In this document: positions 1,881 to 18,274 of the stretch, piece by piece
How positions within the stretch are numbered: the first letter of the stretch is position 1
Layout of the letters: each line of letters opens with the position of its first letter
Assembly: GCA_012031965.1 (NCBI GenBank)
Contig: JAAUSC010000038.1
Span: 1-44,049, forward strand
Length of the DNA: 44,049 nt
Source: Scytonema sp. RU_4_4
GTDB taxonomy: Bacteria > Cyanobacteriota > Cyanobacteriia > Cyanobacteriales > Nostocaceae
Reading direction: 5' to 3'
Program-made: the position numbers and the translations under genes
Notes under the pieces: model-generated
Databases searched by the model: none
What the model was told of the DNA's origin: nothing
Seen by the model: the letters and a program-made list of their open reading frames with translations, nothing else

Positions 1881-2339
1881 CAATTTTTTGGTAAAAGTGT
1901 GGGTTTGCAGGAATCACGATATAGCGGTTCTCATTTACCTGAAATATGCTGTATGCAAGAGGTTTAATCTTTGTACTCATTATTCACCTTTGTGCTGAAG
2001 CTAAGTACAAAATTTCTTAAATGCATTATTTGTTGCTAACTATTCAGCAGCATTTCTAATTGACAAAAGCAATATTATCTTAAATTGCCACGAATGATCG
2101 CAAGCAGACAAAATGTCAGCGATTTTTTTGCTCAATTCTGGCAAGTCATACTCATACCGACTATGATTAAAGGAGATAGACAAAATCAAGAACCCCAGGT
2201 ATGCAAAGCCTTGTTATCGGTGCGGTTGCTCGCTTAGATGCAGGACTTGCTTCAGTTCTCGCTGCTTTGCTGATTTAACCACTAATCAATGACACAGCGA
2301 GAAGGGATCATAGTGGGGTTCGGCGCAAAGGAGAAAAAT
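1881..2339. other. Gene-poor interval, no supported gene
   Basis: About 460 bp, AT-rich, between the IS605-type relic and the VOC gene. A short frame from ATG 2201 (24 codons, starting MQSLVIGAVARL) is readable but has no ribosome binding site or recognisable family. A GGAG (2330-2333) just before 2340 serves the next gene. Nothing else was seen. Confidence 0.5.
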
Positions 2340-2734
2340 ATGAATTTTATTCGCTTTGAACATATCAATGTTTCTTGCAAAGATATTGATGCAACCAAGA
2401 AGTTTTATCAAATCCTATTTCCTGATTGGTATGTACGCGCCGAGGGTGTGTTTGAGGGTAGACACTGGATGCATCTCGGAGACAATCAATTTATCTTGCC
2501 CTTAATGATGAAGCTGAGCAAGAGCGTGTACATACGCCCTATGAAAGTATTGGCATAAATCATGTAGGCTTTGTCATTAAAGACGGCGAAGCTCTGAAAA
2601 AACTGCTTGATATTGAGAATATTGAATATTACACAATGACAGCCCCAGAAACCAAGCACAGAATTTATGTCAATGACCCTGATGGGAATGAGATTGAGTT
2701 CGTTGAATATAACCCTGAGTATGCATTGAAATAA
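2340..2734 (+). pseudogene. VOC/glyoxalase-fold protein, single-base frameshift
   Basis: The first frame gives MNFIRFEHINVSCKDIDATK, KFYQILFPDWYVRAEG and HWMHLGDNQF. The reading then shifts near 2488-2495 and continues in another frame as LALNDEAEQERVHTPYES, GINHVGFVIKDGEAL, RIYVNDPDGNEIEFVEYN. Joined, this is one vicinal-oxygen-chelate protein of about 130 residues with both beta-alpha-beta-beta-beta halves, including the metal-ligand-like H in FEHINV and INHVGF and the E of DGNEIEFVE. One missing T near 2490 (expected CAATTTTATCTT) explains the shift, so it is either a recent mutation or a sequencing error. AAGGAG lies just before ATG 2340. Substrate unknown; unrelated in sequence to the VOC gene at 11170. 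Confidence 0.75.
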
Positions 2735-2769
2735 TCATAAGTTAAACGTTCTTGCTAATCTGGAATAGT

Positions 2770-2866
2770 TTTTGACATCCTCCCACGGCTGTGTGAATAT
2801 CGCGCAGTGTGCTGTAAGCAGCACGCTGCGCTAAGATTCCTACAAAAAGCCGTGGGATTCCCATGA
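2770..2866. mobile_element. IS200/IS605-like terminal hairpin with a nested palindromic repeat
   Basis: TTTGACATCCTCCCACGGCT (2771-2790) and AGCCGTGGGATTCCCATG (2848-2865) are the two arms of a typical IS605-group end hairpin (CCCACGGCT/AGCCGTGGG). The loop, normally a few bases, has grown to 57 bp. It holds a second 12-bp stem, GCGCAGTGTGCT around GTAAGC paired with AGCACGCTGCGC (one G-T pair). No transposase gene is associated. This is a relic of a different element from the one at 1493-1880. Confidence 0.6.
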
Positions 2867-3604
2867 CTGTAATGTCCATTTACTGGGATTTTCTTGTCTC
2901 AAATCCCAAATCTAAAATTGACACTGCTGTCACAGATAAATCTTATACCATACAAAAAATGACAAAATTGCTGACAAAAAATGACAAATTTTCTGAGATC
3001 AGAGCCAATTTTGGGTGGATACTTAAGAAAGAAAATAGGCGTATACATAAAGCGTATATCACCTACCCACCCCTGCTCAAGTTTGTGACTGCATAAGTTC
3101 GATTCACTCAACCCTATATATATGTAGTGACCTTATGACTATCAACCCTGACTCATCCAAGGAACGCTATTTATGAAGAAAAACAAAAGAAAACAAGAGA
3201 GTAGTATTTAAGACAAAGACAATGTATTTGGGAGGAAACTTAACACATATTTACAATGCCTAAAAGAAAATATGACAGCAAGCTCATGCATGTATTAAAG
3301 TTAACCAAAATGAAAGATATATGTAAAACAAATAGATAACAAGCTTGCTGTCAAGGATGTATTTTTCTAACATAAATATGGGTTGAGAGCAGTCCGGATA
3401 CGGTTGAATTCCAACACAATCTCATATCTTGTTCAATGACAAGACGAATCAGCATTTATCGGGAAAACTTAATCATCTCGTGTTTCAACTCTCATAACTT
3501 CCTGACTTTCCCGATTTATCAGATAGACACAATTATTCAGCAAAGTCCTTATTTTCTTTCCGAACTTCCCTTTTTGTCCAAAGTTATAAAAATGGTTTTT
3601 TAAG
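2867..3604. other. Long leader region upstream of the bisindole cluster, with inverted repeats
   Basis: About 740 bp of AT-rich DNA with no convincing gene. The readable frames on both strands across 2863-3111 have no family resemblance or ribosome binding sites. Two inverted repeats stand out: TGACAGCAAGCT (3273-3284) with AGCTTGCTGTCA (3342-3353), and ATCGGGAAA (3458-3466) with TTTCCCGAT (3507-3515). The second ends 89 bp before the dimerase start and could be an operator or a leader-RNA stem. No regulator gene lies next to the cluster, so control from this leader is only a suggestion. Confidence 0.5.
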
Positions 3605-6600
3605 ATGAGCATCTTAGATTATCCCCGGCTGCACTTTCAAGGTTTCGCACGCATCCACGCCCCAACAGGACATAAAAATGGTCTGGTAGATGTCAGTAGC
3701 AACACTGTCTACATGAACGGTCAGCCATTCGACCAGCAGCGTAGCGCATCCGAGTACCACGAATACCTGTACAATTTAGGACCTCGGTTCAATGCCCAAG
3801 GGGAATTAGATGAACAAGGTCCCTTCAGCATGGCAATGGGGTGGGACTTTGGCGGGAATGGTCACTTTTCTATCGAAGCACAAATTGTCAGCACACAACG
3901 CGAGTTTGGACAAATTGACCAACACGATCCAGTCGTAGGACGCAGTGTTGATTTATGGGGTCACTACAATGATTACGTAAAAACAAGCTTCAATCGCGCC
4001 CGTTTCTTTGAATGCGACCCAGCTTCTAACTGGACCAACACAATTATGTTGGGTCAGTTGACCTTCGGACGCCTTGGCGGTTCCCACGAAACCCCAAATA
4101 TGCTTTCTGGACCAATTTCAGGTCTGCAGTTAGCTCGTTGGCAAAACTTCAACCATATCCGTGAATTACCTCAACACTGTCTCAACAATGAATTTCAACG
4201 AGCAGCCGTTTATCAATTTACTGTCCCCAAAGATAACCAAGATTTTCTTTGGGGTGAAGAAATCGCCCAATCACCAACAGTATTAATGTTGCGAGAAGCA
4301 ATGAATCGTGATGATGTGTTGGGGTTAGTTGTGCAATTGGGCATAAGTAATATGTCTGCACCAGTTGAGCCTGACTCACCAACTTTCTGGGAACTACACG
4401 GAACCATCGGATTATGGTGTAAAGATGAACTCAGCACTTATCCTCACGGAAGGTTGCTCATCCCTCGACGTGCGGCTGAATCGGAAATAGAATCTCGACC
4501 AATGTCTAATCTCACCCTACAAGTCACCCCTCAAGGCGTGAGTTTAAATATGGTCACATCAGTACCCTGTGTAGGACGTGCTTCCAAACCGGGACCAGGA
4601 CCAACTCACGCTATTGGTCCCAAACTTGACCTGGGTGATTTGGAAGTGCGTACCGTTGACAGCAAACGGCTGATAGCGCGGATACCCAAGGAAAAATACC
4701 AACACCAAGCGCATCAACTGACGAGTGGAATTATAGATGTTCCTTTAGCAGAACCGTTTGAAAACTTGTCTGTTGAAATAGAACAGCAGGGTCTGTGCAT
4801 CATTGGGACCGCACCTAACGGACAACAGCAAATCCTCGTTCAAGAAGAAGAAATCAATCTTCAGATAGATGACGCTTGTTTGTTTCTTGAGCATCCGAAC
4901 TTGAAGCGTGGTGAAGACCATGCGGTAGAGTTAGAGGTGCGGTCTTTCGTCCGGGGGCGTCCTGTACCAGTTGAGTCTGTCTATCTGCGTCAGTTCTACA
5001 ACCCAAAAGCGTTCCCCCAACTACGCTACGAGTTTGAAAGCGATTCTACCAACGCAGGTCAGACATTCCACTTTCCTCGCAGCAGTGAAATGGAAATTGT
5101 CCACTTCAAGCCAGGAAAGCGGGAGTATAAGGGAGAATTTACTCCCACATGTGCAATTTCCACTGACCACGAGGGGCGCGCTTGGGTAACTGTGCGCGGT
5201 GCTAGACCAGGAACGACACGAGTCTTGCTATCTAGTCACTCAGAGGTTTTACTTTGTGAACCTCATCACCCGGATGAAGCGGAAATTGCTTACGACAATG
5301 ACGATAAACTCGGATTTTGGTCTGGTGCTGGCTTCTTTGCTGTTCGAGTCATGAGTGATGACTGGCACCTAGAAGAAATTCCTGATCAAGCCGTAGATTT
5401 TAACTTAATCTACGAACACGTTCTAGCTTTCTATGAGTTAAGTTTCTCGTTCATGAAAGTGGATGTCTTCAGTCTCGCCGACCAATGCAAGGTGGAAACC
5501 TATGCGCGATTGATGTGGCAGATGTCTGATCCTTGTAACAAATATAAAACTTACTATATGCCCCCAACGCGGGATATGTCTCAAGCCAAGTCGATGCTTT
5601 TGCTGAAGTTTCTGCAAAATCAGCAGCGAGTCGGCTACGTCCCAAGTGCGATTCCAGAACCAAAACGCCCCCAGCGCACCATCCAGACGCGGGAGGAATT
5701 GGTAAGCGCCCTGAAACAGGCGGCGGAGTTGGAAGTTACTGTCATGTTGCAATACATCTATGCAGGATACTCTGTTCCCAACTATGTCACTGGTCAGGAA
5801 TACGTGCATCGGGGTTTGTGGACTCCCGAACAGTTGCATTTAACTTGTGGCGACGGGAAAGAAGTCAAAAGTTACGGAATGCGGGGTGTAGTGCTGGAAA
5901 TTTCCCGTGAGGAAATGATCCACTTTTTGATGGTTAATAATATATTGATGGCGATTGGCGAACCTTTTTATCCAGCAGTTCCCAACTTCCGGGAACTCAA
6001 TGGACGCTTCCCCATTGATGTAGACTTTGCTCTCGAACCATTGAACGCCGCCTCTCTACAGCGTTTTATGCGCTTGGAGATGCCCGACTTTTTGGAAGAA
6101 AAGCTGAACAATGAACCTGTAGGAGGTGATCCGACAGTTGACAACCTGCACGGTTATGGCTCCTTAAGCGAACTGTACCATCAGATTCGCGAAGGACTGA
6201 AGAATATTCCAGATTTATTCATGGTCAAGAAGGGTCAAGTGGGTGGTGAGCATCGTTTATTTTTACGCGATGACTTTAACAAAGTTCACCCAGATTACCA
6301 GTTTCAGGTAGACGACCTCAACAGCGCACTTTTCGCCATCGACCTGATTGTCGAGCAGGGAGAGGGATGTCACACCAAATCACCTAAATTTGAACGTTCT
6401 CACTATCAGCAATTTCGTCGTCTAGCAGAAGCACTTTCTTCTGAGCAAGTGAGTGATGCCAAGACTGAACGTAAAGTACCGTGGAACCCTTCCTACCCTG
6501 CTTTGCGTAATCCCTCCTTACATTACCGAGATTACAACACCAACGTTGTCACTGTCCCCCAAACCAGGGCAGTCATGGAGATATTCAACGAGAGTTATTT

Positions 6601-6964
6601 CCTGATGATGCAACTCATGGTACAACACTTTGGGTTAATGCCCACTGGTAGTCTGCGGCGCTCAAAGCTGATGAATGCTGGTATTGACGTGATGACGGGG
6701 ATGATGCGTCCCTTAGGAGAGTTGCTGATGAGTATGCCTTCAGGCAAAAGCGGTAAAACAGCCGGACCATCTTTTGAGATAGAATCTCCTAGTTATATTC
6801 CCATGCCAGAAATCGCAATGAGTGCGATCGCCCGTCGATTTGAGCGACTAGGACATCGGGCGCGTGAGTGCGAAGTTATCCCCAGCAGCGTTTACGAGAT
6901 GTTTGAGTTTTATGCCAGATTCTTTGAAGACTTGGCTCGTCATCCTCAGTCTTTATCCCATTAA
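3605..6964 (+). CDS. VioB/RebD/StaD-family indolepyruvate-imine dimerase (chromopyrrolate synthase-like)
   Basis: A 1119-residue protein of the family that joins two indole-3-pyruvate imines, giving chromopyrrolic acid (RebD, StaD) or the labile dimer used for violacein (VioB). The whole length follows the family. The N-terminus MSILDYPRLHFQGFARIHAP matches MSILDFPRIHF of VioB; next come NTVYMNGQPFD, LWGHYNDYVKTSFNRARFF, LLIPRRA, then SLADQCKVETYARLMWQM. From about residue 690 comes the ferritin-like C-terminal domain (ELEVTVMLQYIYAGYSVPNY, EISREEMIHFLMVNNILMAI, GSLRRSKLMNAGIDVMTG). It is about 100 residues longer than the roughly 1000-residue characterised members; the extra length appears to lie between residues 390 and 600. 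The next genes are RebC/StaC- and StaP-like, which favours the indolocarbazole branch over violacein. First gene of the cluster; no strong ribosome binding site is seen before ATG 3605. Confidence 0.92.
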   Translation: MSILDYPRLHFQGFARIHAPTGHKNGLVDVSSNTVYMNGQPFDQQRSASEYHEYLYNLGPRFNAQGELDEQGPFSMAMGWDFGGNGHFSIEAQIVSTQREFGQIDQHDPVVGRSVDLWGHYNDYVKTSFNRARFFECDPASNWTNTIMLGQLTFGRLGGSHETPNMLSGPISGLQLARWQNFNHIRELPQHCLNNEFQRAAVYQFTVPKDNQDFLWGEEIAQSPTVLMLREAMNRDDVLGLVVQLGISNMSAPVEPDSPTFWELHGTIGLWCKDELSTYPHGRLLIPRRAAESEIESRPMSNLTLQVTPQGVSLNMVTSVPCVGRASKPGPGPTHAIGPKLDLGDLEVRTVDSKRLIARIPKEKYQHQAHQLTSGIIDVPLAEPFENLSVEIEQQGLCIIGTAPNGQQQILVQEEEINLQIDDACLFLEHPNLKRGEDHAVELEVRSFVRGRPVPVESVYLRQFYNPKAFPQLRYEFESDSTNAGQTFHFPRSSEMEIVHFKPGKREYKGEFTPTCAISTDHEGRAWVTVRGARPGTTRVLLSSHSEVLLCEPHHPDEAEIAYDNDDKLGFWSGAGFFAVRVMSDDWHLEEIPDQAVDFNLIYEHVLAFYELSFSFMKVDVFSLADQCKVETYARLMWQMSDPCNKYKTYYMPPTRDMSQAKSMLLLKFLQNQQRVGYVPSAIPEPKRPQRTIQTREELVSALKQAAELEVTVMLQYIYAGYSVPNYVTGQEYVHRGLWTPEQLHLTCGDGKEVKSYGMRGVVLEISREEMIHFLMVNNILMAIGEPFYPAVPNFRELNGRFPIDVDFALEPLNAASLQRFMRLEMPDFLEEKLNNEPVGGDPTVDNLHGYGSLSELYHQIREGLKNIPDLFMVKKGQVGGEHRLFLRDDFNKVHPDYQFQVDDLNSALFAIDLIVEQGEGCHTKSPKFERSHYQQFRRLAEALSSEQVSDAKTERKVPWNPSYPALRNPSLHYRDYNTNVVTVPQTRAVMEIFNESYFLMMQLMVQHFGLMPTGSLRRSKLMNAGIDVMTGMMRPLGELLMSMPSGKSGKTAGPSFEIESPSYIPMPEIAMSAIARRFERLGHRARECEVIPSSVYEMFEFYARFFEDLARHPQSLSH

Positions 6965-7045
6965 AACAGTACACAGTACACAGTGAAGTCAGTGAACAGT
7001 AAATAGTTAACAGTTAACAAAAGAAACAGATCCGTATTTTCTCTT

Positions 7046-7094
7046 GGTAACTGATAACTGGTAACTGGTAACTGGTAACTGGTAACTGATAACT
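7046..7094. repeat. Heptamer short tandem repeat (GGTAACT)n
   Basis: GGTAACTGATAACTGGTAAC and onwards: a run of the 7-base unit GGTAACT with GATAACT variants at each end. This is the short tandemly repeated repetitive sequence type typical of heterocystous cyanobacteria. The further partial units TGATAACTGACAAC follow the MITE at about 7219, so the MITE seems to have landed inside the tract. Non-coding spacer between the dimerase and the flavoprotein gene. Confidence 0.8.
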
Positions 7095-7217
7095 CAATAC
7101 GGTTCAGTTAAGCATTTTTTCTTTTCTCTTTTCTTCTCTCTGCGCTCTCTGCGCCTCTGCGGTTCGTTAAAAAAATTAACTTTGACAAAGAGTTTTAGCC
7201 TTAACTGAACCGTATTG
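7095..7217. mobile_element. 123-bp MITE-like element with perfect 18-bp terminal inverted repeats
   Basis: CAATACGGTTCAGTTAAG (7095-7112) and its exact complement CTTAACTGAACCGTATTG (7200-7217) bound a non-coding core. The core contains the low-complexity CTCTGCGCCTCTGCGGTTC block also found near 39205-39237. Single copies of the same end occur at 775-792 (one mismatch) and 17261-17278 (two mismatches). No target duplication can be told from the surrounding heptamer repeats. It separates the dimerase and flavoprotein genes by 310 bp, so they may not share a transcript. Confidence 0.7.
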
Positions 7218-7274
7218 ACTGATAACTGACAACTAACTGATGAGTTTAAACAAATAACTTTGGGCTGAAAACCA

Positions 7275-8882
7275 ATGACTTTAGAAAACAATCTAGAAAC
7301 AGATGTACTCATAGTAGGTGGCGGTCCTGTTGGCTTAGCAATGGCAGTAGAATTACGCTACCAAGGTATCGATTGCATCCTTATAGAACAGACTGACGGA
7401 GTTGTGATAGACCCCAAAGTCAGTACAGTCGGACCACGCTCAATGGAATATTGCCGCCGTTGGGGAATCTCTCAACAGATACGTGATGCAGGTTGGCCTC
7501 GTGACCACACTCTAGATATAGCTTGGGTGACGTCTGTTGGCGGATACGAAATATACCGAGTTCACTTTCCCTCCTATGCAGAGCGATCGCTACCTGATTA
7601 CTCACCAGAGCCAGAGCAAGTTTGTCCACAAAATTGGTTTGCTCCAGTATTCCAGAATTACTTGGGAGAGTATCCACACGGGGTCATTCGCTTGCAGCAT
7701 TGCTTAGAAAGCTTTGAGCAGACAGATGAAGGTGTCATCGCCAAAGTCACAAACCTAGAAAAAGAAACGACACAACTCATCCATGCTCGATACATGGTAG
7801 CTTGTGATGGTGCCCGCAGTACAGTACGTAAGGCTTGTGGAGTTGATGCTCCTACCTTTCACGACACCCAGGTGTTTCAGAGTGTGGTGTTCAAAGCACC
7901 AAAGTTGGCGACTGTGATGGGAAAAAACCATGCAATGGTTTATTATTTGGTCAACCCAATTCTTCAAGAACCACTCCGTGCAGTAGACGGGGACTCACTT
8001 TATCGCCTGATTTTGAAGCCAAAAGAAGACGGAAGTGTGCGTGATGCTGAAGAAGCTATCCGCGCCGCCATCTTAATTGATACCCCGTTTGAAATTGTCT
8101 CCAATGTTCCGTGGCGTCTCACCCACCGAGTCGCAGACCATTTCCGAGTGGGAAATATCTTCTTCGTCGGCGACAGTGCGCATACACTTTCCCCCTCTGG
8201 CGGTTTTGGTATGAACACTGGTATCGGTGATGCTGCTGACTTGGGTTGGAAATTAGCTGCTACGCTCAAGGGCTGGGCTGGTCCCAGCTTGCTTGATACC
8301 TATGAAATCGAACGGCGTCCCATTGCAGTGCGAAACCTCCAGGAGGCGAACGCCAACTTGCAACGCACCCAGAAACGTGCTATTCCTCCAGTCATTATGA
8401 CCGACACAAAAGAAGGTGAACAAATCCGCAAAGAGATGGCTATTGGTATGGAACGCAGTGGTGTGAAGCGCGAGTTTGACGCGCCTGGGGTTCACTTCGG
8501 GTTTCGCTATGAGTCGAATGGTATTATCCCTGATGGTACACCCCCCAGCGATGACGCCTTCGAGTGGAAACAGAGTAGTTACCCTGGTTGTCGCGCACCC
8601 CATGCTTGGTTAGAGCAAGGGTTATCTACTTTGGATTTGTTCGGTCGCTCTTTTGTGTTGATGTGCTTTGACTCAATACAGGGAGTCGAAACATTAACAA
8701 AGGTTTGTCAGGAAAAAGGAGTGCCTTTCATGAGCAAGTCCATCGATAACCCCGAAATTGCCAAGCTTTATGAGCGTGCTTATGTCTTGGTGCGACCTGA
8801 TGGACATGTCGCTTGGAGAGGTGACACCCTACCTGAAGACTCAGAAGCGCTGATTGATCGAGTTCGAGGAGTTTTTAATTAG
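7275..8882 (+). CDS. RebC/StaC-like FAD-dependent monooxygenase
   Basis: A 535-residue class A flavin hydroxylase fold. The FAD dinucleotide motif VLIVGGGPVGLAMAVEL is at residues 11-27, the FAD phosphate motif FFVGDSAHTLSPSGGFGMN near residue 297, and a thioredoxin-like C-terminal domain ends in LYERAYVLVRPDGHVAWRGD. Beyond these generic parts it shares RebC-type stretches as I recall them: GPRSMEYCRRWGISQQIRDA, GWPRDHTLDIAWVTSVGGYE, MERSGVKREFDAPGVHFGF. In staurosporine and rebeccamycin synthesis this enzyme works with the StaP/RebP P450 to set the oxidation state of the pyrrole ring (K252c versus arcyriaflavin). The aligned segment here reads LQEPLRAVDGDSLYRL and seems to lack the two active-site arginines described for RebC (about 230 and 239), so a RebC-like outcome is not assured. 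Violacein enzymes VioC and VioD do not match. Confidence 0.88.
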   Translation: MTLENNLETDVLIVGGGPVGLAMAVELRYQGIDCILIEQTDGVVIDPKVSTVGPRSMEYCRRWGISQQIRDAGWPRDHTLDIAWVTSVGGYEIYRVHFPSYAERSLPDYSPEPEQVCPQNWFAPVFQNYLGEYPHGVIRLQHCLESFEQTDEGVIAKVTNLEKETTQLIHARYMVACDGARSTVRKACGVDAPTFHDTQVFQSVVFKAPKLATVMGKNHAMVYYLVNPILQEPLRAVDGDSLYRLILKPKEDGSVRDAEEAIRAAILIDTPFEIVSNVPWRLTHRVADHFRVGNIFFVGDSAHTLSPSGGFGMNTGIGDAADLGWKLAATLKGWAGPSLLDTYEIERRPIAVRNLQEANANLQRTQKRAIPPVIMTDTKEGEQIRKEMAIGMERSGVKREFDAPGVHFGFRYESNGIIPDGTPPSDDAFEWKQSSYPGCRAPHAWLEQGLSTLDLFGRSFVLMCFDSIQGVETLTKVCQEKGVPFMSKSIDNPEIAKLYERAYVLVRPDGHVAWRGDTLPEDSEALIDRVRGVFN

Positions 8883-8900
8883 AATTCGTCCCACAGTTTT

Positions 8901-9021
8901 CAGTTCTCAGTTAATCCCTATGGCTGTTTGCTTTTCGTTCTCGCGAGTACCAAACAGAACCGGATGCATAAATTCATTTTTTCTCCGGTATGGATAACTA
9001 TCAACCGATAACTGAGAACTG
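8901..9021. repeat. 13-bp perfect inverted repeat pair framing an intergenic insert
   Basis: CAGTTCTCAGTTA (8901-8913) and TAACTGAGAACTG (9009-9021) bracket 95 bp between the flavoprotein and GST genes. The inner sequence also has inverted ATCCCTATGG-like and GGATAAC blocks but no gene. The right arm ends 4 bases before the GST start, so it occupies the ribosome-binding region. It looks like a small non-autonomous element or dispersed repeat. Confidence 0.6.
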
Positions 9022-9025
9022 AGTC

Positions 9026-9721
9026 ATGAAACTATATTACGCTCCTGCATCCAGCTATTCCCAACGAGTCCTCATCGCCCTGTACGAGAAGGGAGTTGAT
9101 TTTACAGCGATTCCGGTAAATCTCTTTGACCCCCAATCCCGTGAAGAGTATATGCAAATTAACCTTTTTGCCAAGATACCCACCCTCGTAACGGACAAAG
9201 GAAATGTGATATTTGAAGCTAATATCATCATTGAATACCTTGACCAACATTTTCCAAATACGTCCCGCCTGATTCCTCTTGATTCAGAACAAGCCATAGA
9301 GGTGCGGATGCTGGAACGGATGATTGATGTGTACATCAACAGTGGACGGGAAGCTCTATTTGCTGATACCCAGCGTCCTGTTGAGGAACGAGGCAAAAAA
9401 GAAGTTATCAAAGCTCATCGGTTATTGGAAACGGCGATCGCCATGCTTGATGAAAAACTGGCAAGTCGTACCTGGCTGGGGGGCGAAGAGTTTTCCATCG
9501 CTGACTGTGCTGCTGCTCCCACTCTGGCTTACCTGCGTATGGTTTACAACTACAAACACTTTCCCAACTTGGCAAATTACGTCAGACGTTTGGAGTCCAG
9601 ACCATCCGTAGCGCAAGTTTTCAACTTGGGACGCGACCAGATGACAAAGATGCTGTCTGAACTGCGCAATCCACTGCAACTGGTGCCATTAGATGAATAC
9701 GTAAGTTCTCAACAAAACTAA
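9026..9721 (+). CDS. Glutathione S-transferase-family protein in the bisindole cluster
   Basis: A 231-residue cytosolic GST. The thioredoxin-like N-terminal domain starts MKLYYAPASSYSQRVLIALY, with Ser/Tyr candidates at positions 9-12 for thiol activation. The cis-Pro glutathione loop is AKIPTLVTD, followed by the gamma-glutamyl site FEANIIIEYLDQHFP. The all-helical C-terminal domain has the N-capping box FSIADCAAAPTLAYL. The enzyme class would add glutathione to electrophiles, isomerise, or reduce peroxides. A GST is not part of the staurosporine or rebeccamycin core, so here it may detoxify reactive imine/quinoid intermediates or tailor the product (inference). It sits 143 bp after the flavoprotein gene and 108 bp before the P450 gene, all on the same strand. 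Start ATG 9026 fits the family exactly. Confidence 0.88.
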   Translation: MKLYYAPASSYSQRVLIALYEKGVDFTAIPVNLFDPQSREEYMQINLFAKIPTLVTDKGNVIFEANIIIEYLDQHFPNTSRLIPLDSEQAIEVRMLERMIDVYINSGREALFADTQRPVEERGKKEVIKAHRLLETAIAMLDEKLASRTWLGGEEFSIADCAAAPTLAYLRMVYNYKHFPNLANYVRRLESRPSVAQVFNLGRDQMTKMLSELRNPLQLVPLDEYVSSQQN

Positions 9722-9829
9722 ACAGGACTTACGCAAAATCGCTAAAAATCTTAATTTAACAAACCGCCAAGAACGCCAAGAATTCATAGAGTGTTCGTAA
9801 CTAAAGATAAATTTCCTTGGAGTTAACTA

Positions 9830-11089
9830 ATGACTATTTCTAAAGTTGAGAGACTAAACCCATTTTTACCTGAGGTCATTGCAGAACCTTATACTGTTTA
9901 TCGTCGTTACAGAGAAGAAGACCCTGTTCATTGGGGAATTGCCGCAAACCCCCGGCTCCCTGGTGCCTGGTATCTCTTCCGTTACGAAGATGTCATGCAA
10001 GTGCTGGAAAGCCCTAAATTTGGTCGTGAGGCTAGCCGAGTTCGAGATGACGGTGAAGGCGCACCAGTACCACCAGCCTATCGCGGGTTTAGTTCGATGG
10101 TTAGCAATTGGATGGTTTTCCGAGATCCACCTAACCATACACGACTGCGAATGCTAGTCAACAAAGTTTTCTCTGCAAAGATGGTTGAAAATATTCGTCC
10201 AGCTATCTTAGGTATTACCGATAATCTGTTGGATGGGGTTCAAAACCGTCAAGAGATTGATCTAGTTGAAGATTTTGCCTTCCCATTGCCAGTGATGGTC
10301 ATTGCAGCGCTGCTGGGTGTCGATCCAGAAGACCGCCCACTGTTCCGACAATGGGCATTAGCATTGCAACACGCCAGTGCTTCGCGTCTAACACCATCCC
10401 CAGAACTCTACGAACAAGCCGAACAGGCAACCCAAGGCTTTATCGATTACTTTCAACGAGCGATCGCTCTTCGGCACGCCGAACCACGTCAGGATCTCAT
10501 CACATCTCTCATCAAGGCACAAGAAGAAGGCGACAAACTGAGCGACGAAGAAGTTCTCGCCACATGTATCCACCTACTAACAGCTGGTCATGAAACCACA
10601 GTTAACTTGATTACCAAAGGAGTATTGGCGTTACTGCGCCATCCGCAAGCGCTCGAATTGTTACGCTCCCACCCCGAATTTATGCCAGGGGCAGTGGAAG
10701 AATTGATACGCTACGACAACCCCGTCCAAATGGTCACTCGTTGGGCATATGCAGATATAGAAATTAACGGTAAGCAGATCCGGCGCGGGGATAGCGTGGG
10801 GTTGATGCTTGGTTCTGCTAATCGAGATCCCGCACGTTTCCAGAACCCCGATGTTCTCGATATACAACGCTCAGACTTCAAACACTGCGGCTTTGGCAGT
10901 GGTATCCACTTCTGCCTTGGGTCTGCACTCGCCCGCGCAGAGGCGGCTATTGCCTTAAATGTACTGCTCAACCGTTTACCCGAGCTGCGTCTAGCACAAG
11001 AGAATATTGAGTGGGCAAACAACATCGTGTTCCACGGACCCAAACAAATGCGGGTTGCGTTTAGGTCACCTAGTGCAAACAAAGCTTAA
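9830..11089 (+). CDS. StaP/RebP-like cytochrome P450 (CYP245-like)
   Basis: A 419-residue soluble bacterial P450 with all key motifs: I-helix AGHETT at 252-257, ExxR at 291-294 (EELIRY), and the haem loop FGSGIHFCLGSALARAE with the ligand Cys at about 362. Similarity to StaP (CYP245A1) as I recall it goes beyond the common fold: EPYTVYRRYREEDPVHW, VSNWMVFRDPPNHTRLR, ALQHASASR, VTRWAYADIEINGKQIRRG, LGSANRDPARFQNPDVLDI and the terminal NIVFHGPKQMRVAF. StaP converts chromopyrrolic acid to the indolocarbazole core by intramolecular aryl-aryl coupling and oxidative decarboxylation, and that role is inferred here. A GGAG lies 9 bases before ATG 9830. An electron-donor ferredoxin is not encoded nearby. 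Confidence 0.9.
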   Translation: MTISKVERLNPFLPEVIAEPYTVYRRYREEDPVHWGIAANPRLPGAWYLFRYEDVMQVLESPKFGREASRVRDDGEGAPVPPAYRGFSSMVSNWMVFRDPPNHTRLRMLVNKVFSAKMVENIRPAILGITDNLLDGVQNRQEIDLVEDFAFPLPVMVIAALLGVDPEDRPLFRQWALALQHASASRLTPSPELYEQAEQATQGFIDYFQRAIALRHAEPRQDLITSLIKAQEEGDKLSDEEVLATCIHLLTAGHETTVNLITKGVLALLRHPQALELLRSHPEFMPGAVEELIRYDNPVQMVTRWAYADIEINGKQIRRGDSVGLMLGSANRDPARFQNPDVLDIQRSDFKHCGFGSGIHFCLGSALARAEAAIALNVLLNRLPELRLAQENIEWANNIVFHGPKQMRVAFRSPSANKA

Positions 11090-11102
11090 TCAATTCAATC
11101 AA

Positions 11103-11135
11103 AATTTGGAATTTGGAATTTGGAATTTGGAATTT
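11103..11135. repeat. Heptamer short tandem repeat (AATTTGG)n
   Basis: About four and a half copies of AATTTGG between the StaP-like P450 and the VOC gene. This is the typical cyanobacterial heptamer tandem repeat. It is non-coding, although the longest open frame starts shortly after it at a TTG. Confidence 0.8.
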
Positions 11136-11169
11136 ACTCTAATGTTGGTTGGAAAAAGGATTTAATAAC

Positions 11170-11541
11170 ATGAGTGTCATCCAAGGCTTGACAAAAACCA
11201 TCCTCTATGTAAAGGATATGAACGCGCTGGTACGCTTTTATCGCGACGTGCTGGATCTAAAGATCCAAGAACCAGCCAATTTAGAAAGCTACAGCAACGC
11301 AATCTGGGTGGAGTTTGCTACCGGTGGATGCAACCTGGTGCTACACGCAGATAGAGAGAAGCGACTTGGTGAGGATAGACCCAAGCTGGTATTTAGCGTC
11401 AACGATATGGAAACTGCTCACAAAACGCTAACTGAGCGCGGCGCAAAACTCAGCGATATTCGTTCTCGCTTACCTGGTCTCAAAGTTGCTGACGGTTTTG
11501 ACCCAGAAAACAACCCATTCTCCATTTATTGTCAGGAGTAA
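11170..11541 (+). CDS. VOC/glyoxalase-bleomycin-resistance fold protein in the cluster
   Basis: A 123-residue vicinal oxygen chelate protein: MSVIQGLTKTILYVKDMNAL, VRFYRDVLDLKIQEP, WVEFATGGCNLVLHADRE, LVFSVNDMETAHKTLTERG, then a short C-terminus FDPENNPFSIYCQE. It has two beta-alpha-beta-beta-beta modules. The first metal position, usually His, is Thr in GLTKTILYV, while H in LVLHAD and a C-terminal acidic patch remain, so metal binding is uncertain. Such proteins either catalyse (isomerase, dioxygenase, thiol transferase) or bind and sequester small aromatic molecules as self-resistance. Being inside the cluster suggests one of these for a bisindole (inference). AAAGGA lies about 9 bases before ATG 11170; the in-frame TTG at 11149 is a poorer start. 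Confidence 0.85.
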   Translation: MSVIQGLTKTILYVKDMNALVRFYRDVLDLKIQEPANLESYSNAIWVEFATGGCNLVLHADREKRLGEDRPKLVFSVNDMETAHKTLTERGAKLSDIRSRLPGLKVADGFDPENNPFSIYCQE

Positions 11542-11685
11542 AACTAGCACGCTCAACTGCAACCCTTACTAGATAAGGCTTAATATCAAGTCCCCAGAGG
11601 CGAGGGAGCAGAAGAGCAAGGGACAGGATTTCAAGGTTTTTGCACAGATGTACCGAACAATTGTAAGTAAAAAGGAATCGAAACA

Positions 11686-12947
11686 ATGATTGAACAAAAT
11701 TCAACTCAGTCTGATAAAAAAACTTGCCCCCATCTTGGAGAGGAGTTCCAACCTTTTGTTAACCCACACCTTGATGATCCCTACACTTTCTTTCAGCGTG
11801 CAAGAAAAGAGGAGCCGATATTTTATAGCCCATTGTTCGACGCTTATGTTCTCACCCGTTATGATGACATCATCAATGTACTCAGAGACCCAGCACGATT
11901 TTCTTCCGCCAGTAGCCTCAAGTCGATAGTCAACTCTACACCAGAAGTGTTTGAAGTACTGCGTCAAGGCTTTCCCTTTGTTTCTTTGATTAATAGTGAT
12001 GGCGAGCAACACAAACGCTTGCGCGCTCCTTTTATGAAAGTATTTGCACCCGAGCAGCTGACTTATGTAGAGGATTCAATTCGCGAGATTGCTAATCGGT
12101 TGCTAGATGATTTTATTAATGATGGTCGTGCGGAAATCATCGAAAATTTGCCCATCCACTCCCGCTTGAGGTCATCCTCACGATGTACAGCGTTCCGCTG
12201 AAGATCATGCCAGAAGTCACGCGGTGGGCAAAGGACATGACGCAACTATTTTCGACACCTTTACCTCCAGAACGTCAAGTCGAATGCGCTCGCAGTTTTG
12301 TCTCTTTACAGCACTTCGTTGCAAGTATAATCGAAGAAAAACGACAAGCGCCTCAAGACGACTTAATAACTAACATACTGGATTCTGGGTTGAGTACCCC
12401 TGAGTTAGTGTTGCTTTTGTGTGAGATGATTGTTGCTGGACACGCTACAAGCGCGGATTTCATTGCAACTGCAATCAAACTCTTAGTTGAGCAACCCGAA
12501 GTGTGGCAAAAGCTCCATGAAACTCCATCGCTCATTCCTGCTGTGCTAGAAGAAGTACTCAGGTACGATACTCCTGCGCCATCAATGGTTCGGGTTACGA
12601 CCACAGAAGTTTCCATAGGAGAAATGACAATACCCAAGGAATCTCGGATTCTTATACTCTATGGCTCCGCCAACCGCGATGAGACTCGGTATCCAGATGG
12701 AGAGAACTTTAATATCGAGCGTTTCAAAGATGCGCCTGTTAACCATATTGCATTTAGTCATGGAATGCACCACTGTTTGGGTTCGAGTTTAGCACGTCGA
12801 GAAGGACGAATCGCCCTGGAGATATTATCACAGCGATTACCAAGTTTACGACTTTGCCCCAATCAACAACTCACCCATGTCCCCGCAATGCTCAACCGTG
12901 GTTATACACACCTCGAAGTGGAATGGGATATTCCCCAACAAGGTTAA
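11686..12947 (+). pseudogene. Second cytochrome P450 of the cluster, single-base frameshift
   Basis: The upstream frame (11686 to about 12157) gives the N-terminal third: CPHLGEEFQPFVNPHLDDPY, YVLTRYDDIINVLRDPARFS, then GEQHKRLRAPFMKVFAPEQL and AEIIENLPI. It derails at ATCCACTCC; one extra C (ATCCCACTCC) would restore LPIPLPLEVILTMYSVPLKI. The downstream frame ending at 12947 carries the rest: I-helix AGHATS, EEVLRYDTPAPSMVRVTTTE, GSANRDETRYPDGENFNIER and the haem loop FSHGMHHCLGSSLARREGR. The joined product is about 420 residues with every P450 motif, so the break is recent or a read error in a C-run. It differs clearly from the StaP-like P450 and is not CYP245. A tailoring hydroxylase of the bisindole is likely. 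AAGGA precedes ATG 11686. Confidence 0.87.
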
Positions 12948-13026
12948 ACGGTTCGCTTGCATATGTATCAAACTTTCACCCCTATTTATAAATATCAATC
13001 AAATCAATCACAAGGAGCAAACTTTC

Positions 13027-13248
13027 ATGACTCAACAACCTCCAATCCTAAAACGCGGTAGTACTGGTGCAGATGTCGAGCGCCTGCAAGGCGACTTATC
13101 CCAAATGGGATACGAAGTTGCAGTTGACGGCGTATTTGGTGAGGCGACTGAAAATGCTGTCAAACAATTCCAACAAGACAATAACTTAACTGTGGATGGA
13201 ATCGTTGGACCTCAAACTGGCAGACAATTGGGCGCTGCTTTGACGTAA
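13027..13248 (+). CDS. Mini peptidoglycan-binding-domain protein, copy 1
   Basis: 73 residues that are nothing but one PG_binding_1-type three-helix domain: ILKRGSTGADVERLQGDLSQ, MGYEVAVDGVFGEATENAVK, then QFQQDNNLTVDGIVGPQTGR. The family hallmarks (LKxGSxGxxVxxLQ, VDGxFGxxTxxAVxxFQ, DGIVGPxT) are all present. There is no signal peptide, membrane segment or catalytic domain, which is unusual for a fold normally attached to secreted cell-wall enzymes. A longer reading from 12877 would overlap the P450 gene and is rejected. ATG 13027 has GGAGC 11 bases upstream, shared by all three copies. Its role in the cluster is unknown; a binding or scaffolding domain is possible. Confidence 0.88.
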   Translation: MTQQPPILKRGSTGADVERLQGDLSQMGYEVAVDGVFGEATENAVKQFQQDNNLTVDGIVGPQTGRQLGAALT

Positions 13249-13326
13249 CCCACACTTGATAGCTTGCATACGTATCAAACTTTCACCCCTATTAACAAAA
13301 CAAACAATCAAAAGGAGCAAACTTTC

Positions 13327-13548
13327 ATGACTCAACAACTCCCAATCCTAAAACGCGGTTCCACTGGTGAACATGTCGAGCACCTGCAACACGACTTATC
13401 TCTACTGGGATACGAACTTAAAATTGATGGCATTTTTGGTCCGGCGACTGAAAATGCTGTGAAGAAATTCCAACAAGACAATAACCTAACTGTCGATGGA
13501 ATTGTTGGACCGCAAACTGGGAGACTCATAGGCGCTGCTTTGACCTAA
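13327..13548 (+). CDS. Mini peptidoglycan-binding-domain protein, copy 2
   Basis: Second tandem copy, 73 residues. It is the most divergent of the three in the middle: GEHVEHLQHDLSLLGYELKI replaces GADVERLQGDLSQMGYEVAV, and FGPATENAVKKFQQ replaces FGEATENAVKQFQQ. The C-terminus reads GRLIGAALT. The domain core and the leader with GGAGCAAACTTTC before the ATG are kept, so the copy appears functional. No secretion signal. Confidence 0.87.
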   Translation: MTQQLPILKRGSTGEHVEHLQHDLSLLGYELKIDGIFGPATENAVKKFQQDNNLTVDGIVGPQTGRLIGAALT

Positions 13549-13626
13549 CCCACACTTGATAGCTTGCATACTTTGTCAAACTTTCACCCCTATTAACAAA
13601 TATCACATCAATTGGAGCAAACTTTC

Positions 13627-13848
13627 ATGAGTCAACAGCCCACAATCCTAAAACGTGGTTCCACTGGTGCAGATGTACAACGCTTGCAAGGCGACTTATC
13701 TCAACTGGGACACCAAGTTGAAGTTGATGGCATTTTTGGTGAGGCGACTGAAAATGCTGTGAAGAAATTCCAACAAGACAATAACTTAGCTGTCGATGGA
13801 ATTGTTGGACCTCAAACAGGCAGACAATTAAGTGTTGCTTTGGCGTAA
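13627..13848 (+). CDS. Mini peptidoglycan-binding-domain protein, copy 3
   Basis: Third tandem copy, 73 residues: TILKRGSTGADVQRLQGDLS, QLGHQVEVDGIFGEATENAV, KKFQQDNNLAVDGIVGPQTG. It begins MSQQ instead of MTQQ and ends RQLSVALA. It is the last gene before a strong terminator (13859-13899), which makes the triplet the probable 3' end of the cluster transcript. No signal peptide or second domain. Confidence 0.88.
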   Translation: MSQQPTILKRGSTGADVQRLQGDLSQLGHQVEVDGIFGEATENAVKKFQQDNNLAVDGIVGPQTGRQLSVALA

Positions 13849-13858
13849 CCTAAATGTT

Positions 13859-13921: not shown

Positions 13922-14461
13922 ATGTCAAAAAAATCAATGAAGTTCATAGCCCCATTCATCACTATCATTTTATTAAATACTGTTTTAACTTCCAGCATAG
14001 AAGCTAAACAAAAAGAACCACAGCAGACACCGCAACAAAAAATCAGTCAAACTCAACAGCAAACATCATCTCCCGATTCTATAGAATATCTCACCTCTGC
14101 TGAGACGACTTCTCTCAATCTTCCCTTTTCTGAAGCAGTGCGTGTTGGCAACATGCTTTACCTCTCAGGGACACTCGGAAACATCCCTGGAACAAAAAAA
14201 CTTGTCCCAGGTGGTATCAAAGCTGAGACGAAGCAGACAATGGAGAACATCAAACGTATTCTTGAGAAAAATGGGTCATCTCTCAGTCAAGTTGTAACAT
14301 GTAACGTGATGCTCGCGGATATTAAGGAGTGGGGAGCAATGAACCAACTTTACGTTACTTATTTCCCTAAAAATAGATTACCTGCACGTAGTACATTGGG
14401 AGCAAGCGGTTTAGCTTTAAATGCACGAGTAGAAATTCAGTGTATGGCAACAGTCAAATAA
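13922..14461 (+). CDS. RidA/YjgF-family imine deaminase with a signal peptide
   Basis: A 179-residue protein. Residues 1-28 look like a Sec signal (KFIAPFITIILLNTVLTSS with a possible SIEA cut). A Gln-rich linker runs to about residue 52. A complete RidA domain follows: FSEAVRVGNMLYLSGTLGNI, GIKAETKQTMENIKRILEKN, VVTCNVMLADIKEWGAMNQL, RLPARSTLGASGLALNARVE. The substrate-binding arginine of active RidA members is present (R156 in PARS), as is the following VEI glutamate. RidA hydrolyses reactive 2-imino acids to 2-keto acids and ammonia. The family dimerase upstream uses an imine, so the pairing is suggestive, but export would place this protein outside the cytosol. It starts just past the terminator, so it is probably a separate transcript, perhaps with the exporter 89 bp downstream. 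Confidence 0.85.
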   Translation: MSKKSMKFIAPFITIILLNTVLTSSIEAKQKEPQQTPQQKISQTQQQTSSPDSIEYLTSAETTSLNLPFSEAVRVGNMLYLSGTLGNIPGTKKLVPGGIKAETKQTMENIKRILEKNGSSLSQVVTCNVMLADIKEWGAMNQLYVTYFPKNRLPARSTLGASGLALNARVEIQCMATVK

Positions 14462-14550: not shown

Positions 14551-16182
14551 ATGAGTAACCCAAGAATACAAACTCAATCAAAAAGTTCAACGAGCATCTT
14601 CCAGGATAAGAATTTTTACATCATCAATTCTGTGACGTTGATGGCAATTCTTGGGGGAACTATTTTTAACCCGACGCTACCAACGATACAAAAATTTTTT
14701 CAAGTTTCAGAGGACCAAGCTTCATGGGTAGCAACACTTTTTCAATTACCTGGAGCTTTTGTCACTCCCATATTTGGAGTTTTGGCTGACATTCTTGGCA
14801 GAAAACAAATATTGGTTCCCTCGCTCCTAATATTTGCCCTCGGTGGAGCTTTTAGTGGCTTGGCTTCTAGTTTTACCAGCCTTTTGGGATGGCGATTTTT
14901 GCAAGGTGTTGGTACTGCAAGCCTAGAGTCCCTGCAACTGACCATTATCGGCGACCTTTATCAAGGGAGAAAGCTGGGCGCTGCGATGGCATTTAATGCC
15001 AGCTTAATTGGTATGAGTTCAGCGATTTTTCCATTAATTGGTGGGTTTTTAGGGCTATTTAGTTGGAGATATCCATTTTTATGCTCACTGGTTGCCATTA
15101 TCGTGGCATTTTTGGTACTCACAACATTAAGATTGCCAAGACGACAGCAGAACGCAGAGAGATTTCAACTCAAATCTTATCTACAAAGTACCTGGAGCAG
15201 CATTAACAATCGTCAGGTATTTGGACTCTTGTTTGCGGTGATGTCTCTGTTTATGCTGCAAACTGGAACTTGCTTAACCTTTTTACCTTTCTTAGCAACA
15301 AATAAATTTAGTACATCGGAAGCTGTAAATGGTATCCTCCTGACTTGTATGTCGCTGTCTTTAGCAATTGTCGCTTCTCAATTAGGACGGTTGCTGCAAA
15401 ATCTCTCAGAAATCAAGCTCATCAAACTCTCTTTTCTTCTGTTTGCTGTCGCGTTATTACTTGTTCCTCTTGTTCCTAACATTTGGTTGCTATTTATCCC
15501 AATTTTTTTAATGGGTGCTGCTCAAGGTTTGGCGTTTCCATGTTCTCAAGCACTCTTAGCTGGGCTTTCTGCGCAAGAATCTCGCGCCGGATTTATGGCG
15601 GTGAATTCAACGCTTCAATCATGGGGACAAACACTTGGTCCTTTATTAGGAAGTTTTGCTGTGAAGTTCTGGGGACTACAAGCAGTCTTTTATACTAGCG
15701 CTGTTTTTTCCCTTATTGGATTCGCAATCTTTAATTATTTCGTAACGAGTAAAGTATTCGATTTCACTGCCAAAACTATACAGCTACAGGTTCCAGTTAA
15801 TACCGAACAACTAACTTTGATTCCAGAGTCTGCATCTCCAACAATCCTACAACAACCCATTGCACAACTCTTCCATGTCCAGACTAACAGGGTCATTGAA
15901 TTACCGGAACATTTTCAGGTTATTAATATCGGCAAGTCCAGTAACCGTATTACTCCTGAAATTGATCTTTTAGATTTTCCCAATTCTGGAGTTGTCTCAC
16001 GAGTTCACGCTCAGATTCGTTACGATGGAAACGAATACTATATCCAAGACCTGAACAGTTCTAACGGCACTTACATCAACAAGTATCCACTCATACCAGG
16101 TGTTTGGTATAAATTAAAATCAGGTCTTCAAATTAGTCTTGGTCGGCAAGACGCCTTTGCATTCATATTTCAGATTGATTAG
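14551..16182 (+). CDS. MFS multidrug-type exporter with a C-terminal FHA domain
   Basis: A 543-residue protein. Residues 20-410 are a major facilitator permease of the drug:H+ antiporter type. The A-loop is GVLADILGRKQILVPSLLIF, and about 12 hydrophobic segments include FLQGVGTASLESLQLTIIGD, WRYPFLCSLVAIIVAFLVL and LVPNIWLLFIPIFLMGAAQG. After a linker of about 45 residues comes a forkhead-associated domain (about 450-543): INIGKSSNR, SGVVSRVHAQIRYDG, YIQDLNSSNGTYINKYPLI. It keeps the GKS, SRVHA and SSNGTYIN phosphothreonine-binding motifs. The fusion suggests that a Ser/Thr-kinase signal may gate or localise the exporter. Self-resistance or product export is inferred from position only. Convergent with the next gene. 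Confidence 0.87.
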   Translation: MSNPRIQTQSKSSTSIFQDKNFYIINSVTLMAILGGTIFNPTLPTIQKFFQVSEDQASWVATLFQLPGAFVTPIFGVLADILGRKQILVPSLLIFALGGAFSGLASSFTSLLGWRFLQGVGTASLESLQLTIIGDLYQGRKLGAAMAFNASLIGMSSAIFPLIGGFLGLFSWRYPFLCSLVAIIVAFLVLTTLRLPRRQQNAERFQLKSYLQSTWSSINNRQVFGLLFAVMSLFMLQTGTCLTFLPFLATNKFSTSEAVNGILLTCMSLSLAIVASQLGRLLQNLSEIKLIKLSFLLFAVALLLVPLVPNIWLLFIPIFLMGAAQGLAFPCSQALLAGLSAQESRAGFMAVNSTLQSWGQTLGPLLGSFAVKFWGLQAVFYTSAVFSLIGFAIFNYFVTSKVFDFTAKTIQLQVPVNTEQLTLIPESASPTILQQPIAQLFHVQTNRVIELPEHFQVINIGKSSNRITPEIDLLDFPNSGVVSRVHAQIRYDGNEYYIQDLNSSNGTYINKYPLIPGVWYKLKSGLQISLGRQDAFAFIFQID

Positions 16183-17383: not shown

Positions 17384-18274
17384 ATGAAAATAGGAACTAA
17401 AGTTAATCTAATTTTAATAATAGTTTTTATCAGCGGTATGCTCATTAGTGGTATCGCTTTATCAAATGTACTTGCAAAAAAAGCAGAAAATGAGATAAGT
17501 TCTAAAGCTGAGATTCTCATGCAATTGGTCAATTCGCTGAGAACCTATACCAACGACCGTGTACAACCCTTATTGTTACCGAAATTAGACACTCAAGAGC
17601 AGTTCATCCCAGAATCTATACCAACATATTCCACTAGAGAAGTATTTGAAATTTTCCGTAAAAACAAAGAATATGCGCATTTTGTTTACAAAGACGCCGC
17701 ACCGAATCCAACAAACTTGCGGGATAAACCTGACGATTTTGAAGCTGAAATTGTTGAACGATTTCGTAAAGATACGGAGTTAAGAAACATAGATGGTTTC
17801 CGAACAATGTCTGGAGAGAAACTATTTTATACCGCCCGACCTTTTAAAATTGAGCAACAGAGTTGTTTGCGCTGTCATAATACTCCCCAAGAAGCTCCAA
17901 AAAGTCAAATAATAACCTACGGGAAAGACAATGGTTTTGGATGGAAGCTTAATCAAATTGTTGCAGCCCAAATGGTTTATGTTCCGGCTTCTGATATTTT
18001 GAAAAATGCTAATCAGTCATTGGTTATGATGATGGGAGTTGTAGGGATAATTTTTACCATCATCATTATCGTCATCAATCAGTTGTTGAAAAAGACTGTG
18101 CTATTACGTGTGAGAAAAATTGCTAATGTGGCAGAACAAGTTAGTATTGGTGATATGAATGCCAATTTTGATAAACAATCTAAAGATGAAATAGGAGATT
18201 TAGCAGAAGCTTTCAACAGGATGAAGTATAGTTTAGAAATGGCTCTCAACATGTTAAATAAAAATCATGATTAA
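17384..18274 (+). CDS. Tll0287-like (DUF3365) haem-binding sensor with HAMP domain
   Basis: A 296-residue membrane protein. TM1 is at about residues 8-28 (LILIIVFISGMLISGIALSN). The extracytoplasmic Tll0287-like domain carries a c-type haem motif CLRCH at 161-165 and the surrounding family signature (GFRTMSGEKLFYTARPFKIE). TM2 is at about 213-235 (MMGVVGIIFTIIIIVINQLL), then a HAMP linker to the end (RVRKIANVAEQVSIGDMNAN, KDEIGDLAEAFNRMKYSLEM). There is no kinase or methyl-accepting domain after the HAMP, so it must signal through a partner. ATG 17384 is chosen: the open frame extends upstream to 17276, but that part overlaps a MITE-end repeat and lacks family character. The family is linked to redox or ligand sensing. 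Confidence 0.85.
   Translation: MKIGTKVNLILIIVFISGMLISGIALSNVLAKKAENEISSKAEILMQLVNSLRTYTNDRVQPLLLPKLDTQEQFIPESIPTYSTREVFEIFRKNKEYAHFVYKDAAPNPTNLRDKPDDFEAEIVERFRKDTELRNIDGFRTMSGEKLFYTARPFKIEQQSCLRCHNTPQEAPKSQIITYGKDNGFGWKLNQIVAAQMVYVPASDILKNANQSLVMMMGVVGIIFTIIIIVINQLLKKTVLLRVRKIANVAEQVSIGDMNANFDKQSKDEIGDLAEAFNRMKYSLEMALNMLNKNHD

Follow-up and report, generated by a model that had tools for sequence, protein, structure and literature searches.

A probable cyanobacterial branch of the indolocarbazole pathway in Scytonema sp. RU_4_4, with a glutathione-transferase-like protein that accompanies the StaP-type P450

Indolocarbazoles are kinase and topoisomerase inhibitors, known for the most part from actinomycetes. 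A cluster that very probably represents a cyanobacterial branch of this tryptophan-dimer pathway is located in Scytonema sp. RU_4_4 (GenBank assembly GCA_012031965.1), on a stretch of 44,049 nucleotides (JAAUSC010000038.1, positions 1 to 44,049; hereafter, the window), which forms contig C185 in a draft assembly of 7.33 Mb and 400 contigs. Passages of PMC10851217 and PMC3158105 describe the RebO/RebD/RebP/RebC-type order of steps, and passages of the former also describe the roles of RebC and StaC. The window set shows the same enzyme types as the rebeccamycin and staurosporine cores (RebO, RebD, RebP, RebC; StaO, StaD, StaP, StaC), but it adds a glutathione-transferase (GST)-like protein, a VOC protein and a RidA-type protein, has no oxidase within the cluster, and no glycosyltransferase, sugar genes or halogenase were seen in the window. 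Furthermore, the RebC-like gene is optional among the cyanobacterial relatives. In Streptomyces clavuligerus, the staC homologue is likewise apart from the dimerase and P450 genes, as seen in its locus here and in passages of PMC3158105. The tjipanazole route comprises a halogenase, an oxidase, a chromopyrrolic acid synthase-like protein, a P450 and an FAD-binding monooxygenase, according to passages of a review (PMC10300848). Its cluster, tjp of Symphyonema bifilamentata ('Fischerella ambigua' 108b), is also cyanobacterial and shows the same core by the description in that review; compared by description only, it differs in a tryptophan halogenase. Pfam scans of 30 window proteins (E limits of 1e-3, 1e-10 and 1e-6; small and overlapping open reading frames, ORFs, excluded) found no halogenase and no glycosyltransferase, as an earlier reading of the window made from its letters (the sequence-only reading) had stated, and no deoxysugar genes of the cluster.

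In the reductasporine pathway, the P450 that forms the indolocarbazole yields a reactive product, and the imine reductase RedE captures it (passages of PMC10851217). The likeness to the window would lie in an extra enzyme after the P450, which is an imine reductase in that pathway and a GST-like protein, the constant extra, in this one. PRISM predicted one 'maleimide indolocarbazole' cluster in each of the four Chlorogloeopsis genomes tabulated in PMC11392904, and 'indole' clusters were reported in Brasilonema octagenarum and Brasilonema sp. CT11 (PMC7261140, PMC7503407); the accessible passages of these three papers contain no gene description, co-occurrence test or mention of a GST. Chlorogloeopsis fritschii (locus L082) and Brasilonema sp. 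CT11 (L073) have the cluster family described here. No title or abstract on this family, or on a GST in it, was found in the open-licence literature, which does not imply absence from print. PMC4558948 mentions tjipanazole a single time, as a compound, with no match for indolocarbazole, PMC8073705 contains none of five terms looked for, and the accessible passages of PMC13200232, a 2026 survey of staurosporine-like clusters, gave no match for 'cyanobacteri' or 'glutathione'. The kind of pathway is already known, and what would surprise a specialist is the constant GST together with the optional RebC-like gene.

Identity of the core enzymes and proposed pathway

Seven forward-strand ORFs between positions 3605 and 12947 agree with those of an earlier list, and the three core enzymes lie on one strand of a cyanobacterial genome, as the sequence-only reading had it (Table 1). 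Their identity is well supported by sequence comparison. The flavoprotein shows 636 bits against solved RebC (2r0c) and 630 bits against a RebC mutant (4eip), followed by 182 bits for the next solved enzyme, and it is 50-51% identical to three actinomycete homologues. In a 32-row tree of locus proteins of at least 480 amino acids, five other hydroxylases, of which one has a long branch, are set apart from the RebC/StaC and cyanobacterial rows by a branch with 100/100 support; the order within the RebC/StaC and cyanobacterial group is unsettled. The StaP-type P450 (P450a) has as best solved relative 2z3t, which we take to be StaP (the database entry reads 'Cytochrome P450'), with 396 bits, and PksS follows with 296 bits; it is 40-44.5% identical to two actinomycete homologues. 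In a 54-row tree that took locus proteins of at least 380 amino acids, the cyanobacterial P450s of this kind, 20 in number, fall into a single group (100/99). The neighbouring group (100/99) contains StaP, a Pseudonocardia RebP-type protein, a Streptomyces clavuligerus StaP-type protein and an Actinoplanes protein, and an Aquimarina protein accompanies them. The Pseudonocardia and Streptomyces labels were assigned in this analysis from the clusters that contain these P450s. For both enzymes, then, the claim of similarity to pathway-specific proteins stands, and the phylogenies proposed as a check of it place the flavoprotein on the RebC/StaC side and the P450 with the StaP and RebP types, in a joint group of 25 rows whose support of 89/100 is below the star of 95 set by the tool.

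The dimerase shows 133 bits against PF12902 and 972.9 bits against the NCBIfam VioB model TIGR04492, whose equivalog cut-off of 1250 is not reached. Four actinomycete RebD/StaD-type proteins, used as a yardstick, show 664-763 bits against the same model, and the dimerase shares 42-44% identity with four actinomycete homologues. The ferritin-like domain covers residues 703-941, and E710, E769, E770, H773, H883 and H895 are invariant in an alignment of 38 rows. No solved relative of the dimerase emerged from a sequence search of the PDB. The dimerase tree took locus proteins of at least 1000 amino acids (the split or partial L081, L084, L089 and L091-L093 were excluded, and L086 was included by coordinates); in this tree, which contains no VioB sequence, VioB being represented through the NCBIfam model alone, the window protein falls outside the group of five actinomycete dimerases. 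Membership of the VioB/RebD/StaD family, as proposed for this gene, holds, and its score is nearer to VioB than those of the four actinomycete proteins. The genome also contains a paralogue of the C-terminal part of the dimerase (G000:C219:72399-73568, locus L052), an ORF of 521 amino acids with 27-31% identity. Divergent dimerase loci (33-46%), each with its own oxidase, were found in Mojavia (L091), Nostoc sp. XA010 (L092) and Aquimarina (L093); in these three loci the dimerase is split between neighbouring ORFs, one of about 676-709 and the other of about 414-416 amino acids.

From these assignments we infer a route that would begin with a flavin tryptophan oxidase acting in trans, encoded on contig C174 or elsewhere, to give the indole-3-pyruvate imine. 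The dimerase would couple two imines, with closure to chromopyrrolic acid, and the StaP-type P450 would join the two indoles at their C2 atoms. The resulting dicarboxy product, which is unstable, would be converted by the RebC/StaC-type flavoprotein into arcyriaflavin A or K252c, and the GST-like protein would act at or just after the P450 step. The MFS protein would export the product, the VOC protein may bind it, and the second P450 (P450b), broken here, would have modified the aglycone. The choice between arcyriaflavin A and K252c (RebC 8-electron versus StaC 4-electron oxidation) was considered at the ten positions at which 2r0c and 4eip differ, the latter being, we assume, the StaC-like RebC mutant RebC-10x. 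The window flavoprotein has E Q T K S Q V A R I there; six letters agree with RebC, three with the mutant and one with neither, and the two products are therefore left as alternatives. The last eight positions are the same as in the window protein in 19 of 22 cyanobacterial rows, and the sequence is E E S K G H V S R T in the remaining three rows (from Anabaena azotica, Chlorogloeopsis and Fischerella). The Arg of the window protein is also present in all five other hydroxylases and is thus likely ancestral. The most likely product, to judge from the enzymes encoded, is an unglycosylated and unhalogenated aglycone similar to arcyriaflavin A or K252c, further changed by additional steps, and it is plausibly different from the tjipanazoles.

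Distribution of the cluster and the glutathione-transferase-like protein

The genome survey covered 99 genomes, that of Scytonema sp. RU_4_4 included. Full-length dimerase (at least 69% identity) is present in 15 of them; at E 0.001 the count is 19, and the extra four (G022, G038, G043 and G057) are fragments, partial, or 30-57% identical. P450 orthologues (at least 67% identity) and the GST (at least 67% identity, E 1e-70) are present in exactly the same 15 genomes, so that the three sets are identical. At E 1e-100 the P450 is found in 17 genomes, the extra two (G008 and G051) being 44-45% identical. The chance of one such agreement is 5e-18 by genome and 2e-13 at genus level (10/89), kinship ignored. 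Of the 15 dimerase genomes, 10 have the RebC-like gene (E 1e-100), which none of the other 84 shows, and 12 have the oxidase (E 1e-120), found also in G003, which shows no dimerase. In the P450, RebC-like and oxidase surveys a few first-look candidates were left unscored in some genomes; a repeated search for the RebC-like gene with all candidates scored, in four of the five negatives (G101, G103, G111 and G116, presumably G011, G017, G024 and G049; not G004), gave no match. In a second set, which overlaps with the 99 genomes, the 22 genomes of named loci contain the P450 in 21 cases, the RebC-like gene in 13 and the oxidase in 20, and the GST (E 1e-30) is found in 25 of 26 genomes, with one copy each. 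Nostoc flagelliforme FACHB-838 (G107) is the sole genome of this set without P450 and the sole one without GST, and it shows no RebC-like gene either. The GST-like protein is, in the genomes examined, a constant partner of the P450. Dimerase, RebC-like, GST and P450a genes are under purifying selection, with ratios of nonsynonymous to synonymous substitution (dN/dS) of 0.09-0.20 in three comparisons each (0.09-0.15 for the flavoprotein). The set is not a one-off: filamentous cyanobacteria, with many Nostocales among them, have a cluster family with common aglycone enzymes, in which the GST is kept wherever the P450 is kept and the RebC step is optional.

Additional genes were seen in further loci. 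In the Nostoc flagelliforme dimerase locus (L064) a chalcone-synthase-type gene is located nearby, at 18222-19463, and this, in a genome with neither P450 nor GST, may point to a different use of the dimer. In Chlorogloeopsis fritschii (L082, 273-8329) an aromatic operon directly precedes the oxidase and encodes 3-deoxy-D-arabino-heptulosonate 7-phosphate synthase, anthranilate synthase, indole-3-glycerol phosphate synthase, tryptophan synthase alpha, a pyridoxal phosphate enzyme and a TrpD-type transferase. Locus L083 contains ORFs of similar sizes at the same place.

The predicted model of the GST-like protein shows a GST fold, with a mean pLDDT (predicted local distance difference test) of 82, and its closest solved proteins are bacterial GSTs of about 30% identity. 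S9, S10 and P52 are invariant in 19 aligned proteins; we take S9 and S10 to be the N-terminal Ser and P52 to be the usual cis-Pro position of GSTs. Position 65 is Ala in all 24 aligned cluster GSTs and Ser in four solved relatives. Since Ser at this position is presumably a glutathione contact in GSTs, catalysis may be weak. Ten other dimerase loci (five of actinomycetes, four cyanobacterial outliers and one of Aquimarina) gave no GST-like stretch with a cut-off of E 1. The protein is placed at or after the P450 step because of the co-occurrence alone. We tentatively propose, as a possibility rather than a probability, that it is a fourth core enzyme of cyanobacterial indolocarbazole biosynthesis, which would capture, reduce or thiolate the short-lived product of the StaP-type P450. 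This role would account for its constant presence together with the P450 in the genomes tested, the RebC-like gene being optional. Its competitor, to which we give nearly an even chance, is a purely protective protein that acts in detoxification, of the product or of oxidative by-products, and has no share in product formation. GSTs commonly detoxify, and the uniform Ala65, with the weak catalysis that it may entail, also counts for protection; against it, the GST tracks the P450 across the genomes tested and adjoins it in G024 and G056, where both sit away from the dimerase. In G113-G115 and G118 the GST adjoins the RebC-like gene and the P450 is elsewhere, an arrangement that fits work after the P450 and protection alike. 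If the proposal of a fourth core enzyme is true, the GST would be a third route for steering the P450 intermediate, besides the RebC/StaC flavoproteins and the imine reductase RedE, and its capture of the intermediate would yield a new kind of aglycones. The field has yet to explain mechanistically how the fate of the P450 product is controlled, and the GST gives a testable handle on this.

Missing oxidase, second P450 and alternative readings

A tryptophan oxidase was not found in the window (best tblastn E 3.9). In L054, the locus of Brasilonema sp. UFV-L1, the dimerase is preceded by a tryptophan-oxidase-type gene at 7594-9153, and window positions 2094-2738 and 3070-3700 are 86 and 88% identical by blastn to L054 6188-6870 and 9467-10096, respectively, with the intervening L054 stretch absent. 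The core set that had been read as following the oxidase step shows its three enzymes, but the oxidase that close relatives have upstream is missing. One other strong oxidase match is present in the genome of this strain (C174:9159-10673, 505 amino acids), 71-75% identical to the dimerase-adjacent oxidases of the five nearest loci (L054-L056, L058 and L061), and it may supply the pathway in trans. Two members of the genus have orthologues of it (91-92%), and in one of them (G003, 89% complete) the dimerase search gave no match. That the C174 gene is the relocated oxidase of the cluster was considered and is weakened by three findings: its identity to the L054 oxidase is 71%, versus 91-96% between the two loci for dimerase, flavoprotein and GST, it is paired with a gene from a genus member with no dimerase, and its place in the oxidase tree (L111 and L113 excluded) is not settled. 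Two genus members with dimerase, G001 and G005, show a 35-residue match and a partial match, respectively, and no full oxidase. In Scytonema tolypothrichoides (L059, 6066 region; L029, 16269-18053) a group II intron reverse transcriptase gene is located upstream of the dimerase, at the site where relatives have the oxidase, and no oxidase was found in its genome at the thresholds used.

Each of the two ORFs of P450b, which lie in different frames, matches by tblastn its own part of a single P450 that L054 and Nostoc sp. CHAB 5824 (L056) have in intact form, and P450b appears to be broken by a frameshift near 12,145, or by an assembly error in the draft. Loci L057, L058, L060, L061 and L067 show an unrelated P450 at this place. 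A tie between loss of the RebC-like gene and one kind of second P450 was dropped, as both kinds are found with and without RebC-like. Identity to L054 is 91-93% over 3070-9693, 69-78% over 9812-13850 (single repeat units within 12953-13850 reach 82-85%) and 86% after 14075, and identity to L056 is 83-86% before 9722 and 89.5-90% over 9799-13250. This switch of the nearest relative gives the P450-VOC-P450b block a history different from that of the dimerase-flavoprotein-GST block, and the former has been exchanged with another lineage. The L056 block additionally contains a Rieske oxygenase gene. Block exchange and repeated loss of the oxidase illustrate the reshuffling of such clusters.

Several observations weigh against an indolocarbazole pathway at this locus: no oxidase lies beside the dimerase in this strain, three of the 15 dimerase genomes (G001, G005 and G017) give no oxidase match at E 1e-120, and the C174 oxidase, being also in G003 with no dimerase match, need not serve this pathway. 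To these are added the RebC-like gene missing in five of the 15 dimerase genomes, the model score of the dimerase, which leans to VioB relative to the four actinomycete RebD/StaD-type proteins, and the several long branches of the 25-row P450 group, itself at 89/100. The score, together with some cyanobacterial dimerase loci that show no P450 nearby (e.g., L062 and L064), so that the dimerase would be used in other settings, could mean that the dimer is diverted before the indolocarbazole is formed, toward a violacein-like or other bisindole. This is highly improbable, with a StaP-type P450 in 15 of 15 dimerase genomes and a score short of the VioB cut-off. That the product is a tjipanazole-like indolo[2,3-a]carbazole with neither chlorine nor sugar, and the cluster a halogenase-free relative of tjp, is doubtful; the reviewed tjipanazole route is the same core plus a halogenase (passages of PMC10300848), but the likeness to tjp is known by description, not sequence, and a cblaster screen reported tjp in Symphyonema alone (passages of PMC8065813).

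An indolocarbazole pathway remains the preferred reading for the cluster; given the missing oxidase and the broken P450b, it is uncertain whether the cluster functions in this strain. A cluster that is decaying here and makes nothing, its intact genes having had too little time to break, seems to us somewhat unlikely. Decay would account for the oxidase absent relative to L054, for the frameshift of P450b and for the two further genus members with dimerase that also have no full oxidase (G001 and G005); it agrees less well with the open and conserved dimerase, RebC-like, GST and P450a genes and with an intact oxidase of the same kind on C174, and the frameshift could be an assembly error of the 400-contig draft.

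Gene layout and neighbouring features

Table 1. Features of the cluster and its surroundings, in window coordinates.
Feature	Position	Strand	Evidence
Site of missing tryptophan oxidase	2738..3070	.	blastn of flanks against L054
VioB/RebD-type dimerase, putative chromopyrrolic acid synthase, 1119 amino acids	3605..6964	+	TIGR04492, PF12902, residue conservation
RebC/StaC-type FAD enzyme (FAD_binding_3), 535 amino acids	7275..8882	+	RebC 2r0c match, tree, dN/dS
Glutathione-transferase-like protein, 231 amino acids	9026..9721	+	PF13417/PF00043, predicted fold, co-occurrence
Block P450-VOC-P450b, exchanged	9693..13250	.	identity profile against L054 and L056
StaP/RebP-type cytochrome P450 (P450a), 419 amino acids	9830..11089	+	2z3t match, tree, orthologue distribution
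VOC (glyoxalase/bleomycin-resistance fold) protein, 130 amino acids, TTG start	11149..11541	+	PF00903
Second P450 (P450b), apparently broken, two ORFs (11686-12201 and 12183-12947)	11686..12947	+	tblastn with L054 and L056; PF00067 in the 3' ORF
RidA-type protein, 179 amino acids, conserved neighbour	13922..14461	+	PF01042, 106 bits
MFS exporter with C-terminal FHA domain, conserved neighbour	14551..16182	+	PF07690, PF00498

The GST, the VOC protein and a second P450 had been named as additions to the core; the first two are present and the P450 appears to be broken. Among 40 dimerase loci, homologues of the VOC protein are found in 14, of the RidA-type protein in 10 and of the MFS-FHA protein in 16 (at least 55% identity); several of these loci stop at contig ends, and the counts of absence are thus upper limits. 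The remaining window proteins are, as scanned, ordinary: a phosphonate-binding protein, a caspase-like protein, histidine kinases, a phytochrome, and proteins of nucleotide-sugar and glycerol metabolism. Between P450b and the RidA gene, positions 12955-13850 contain three 300-base units in tandem; the scan covered the middle unit alone, which encodes a peptidoglycan-binding domain. Upstream of the cluster, at 2341-2734 and inside the piece that matches L054 6188-6870, a VOC-like coding stretch split into two frames was seen by eye. Positions 29-560, with the contig start just before, show a CRISPR-like array with five copies of a 45-base reference repeat, whose start-to-start spacing is 81, 72, 255 and 79 bases, with an insertion inside the long interval.

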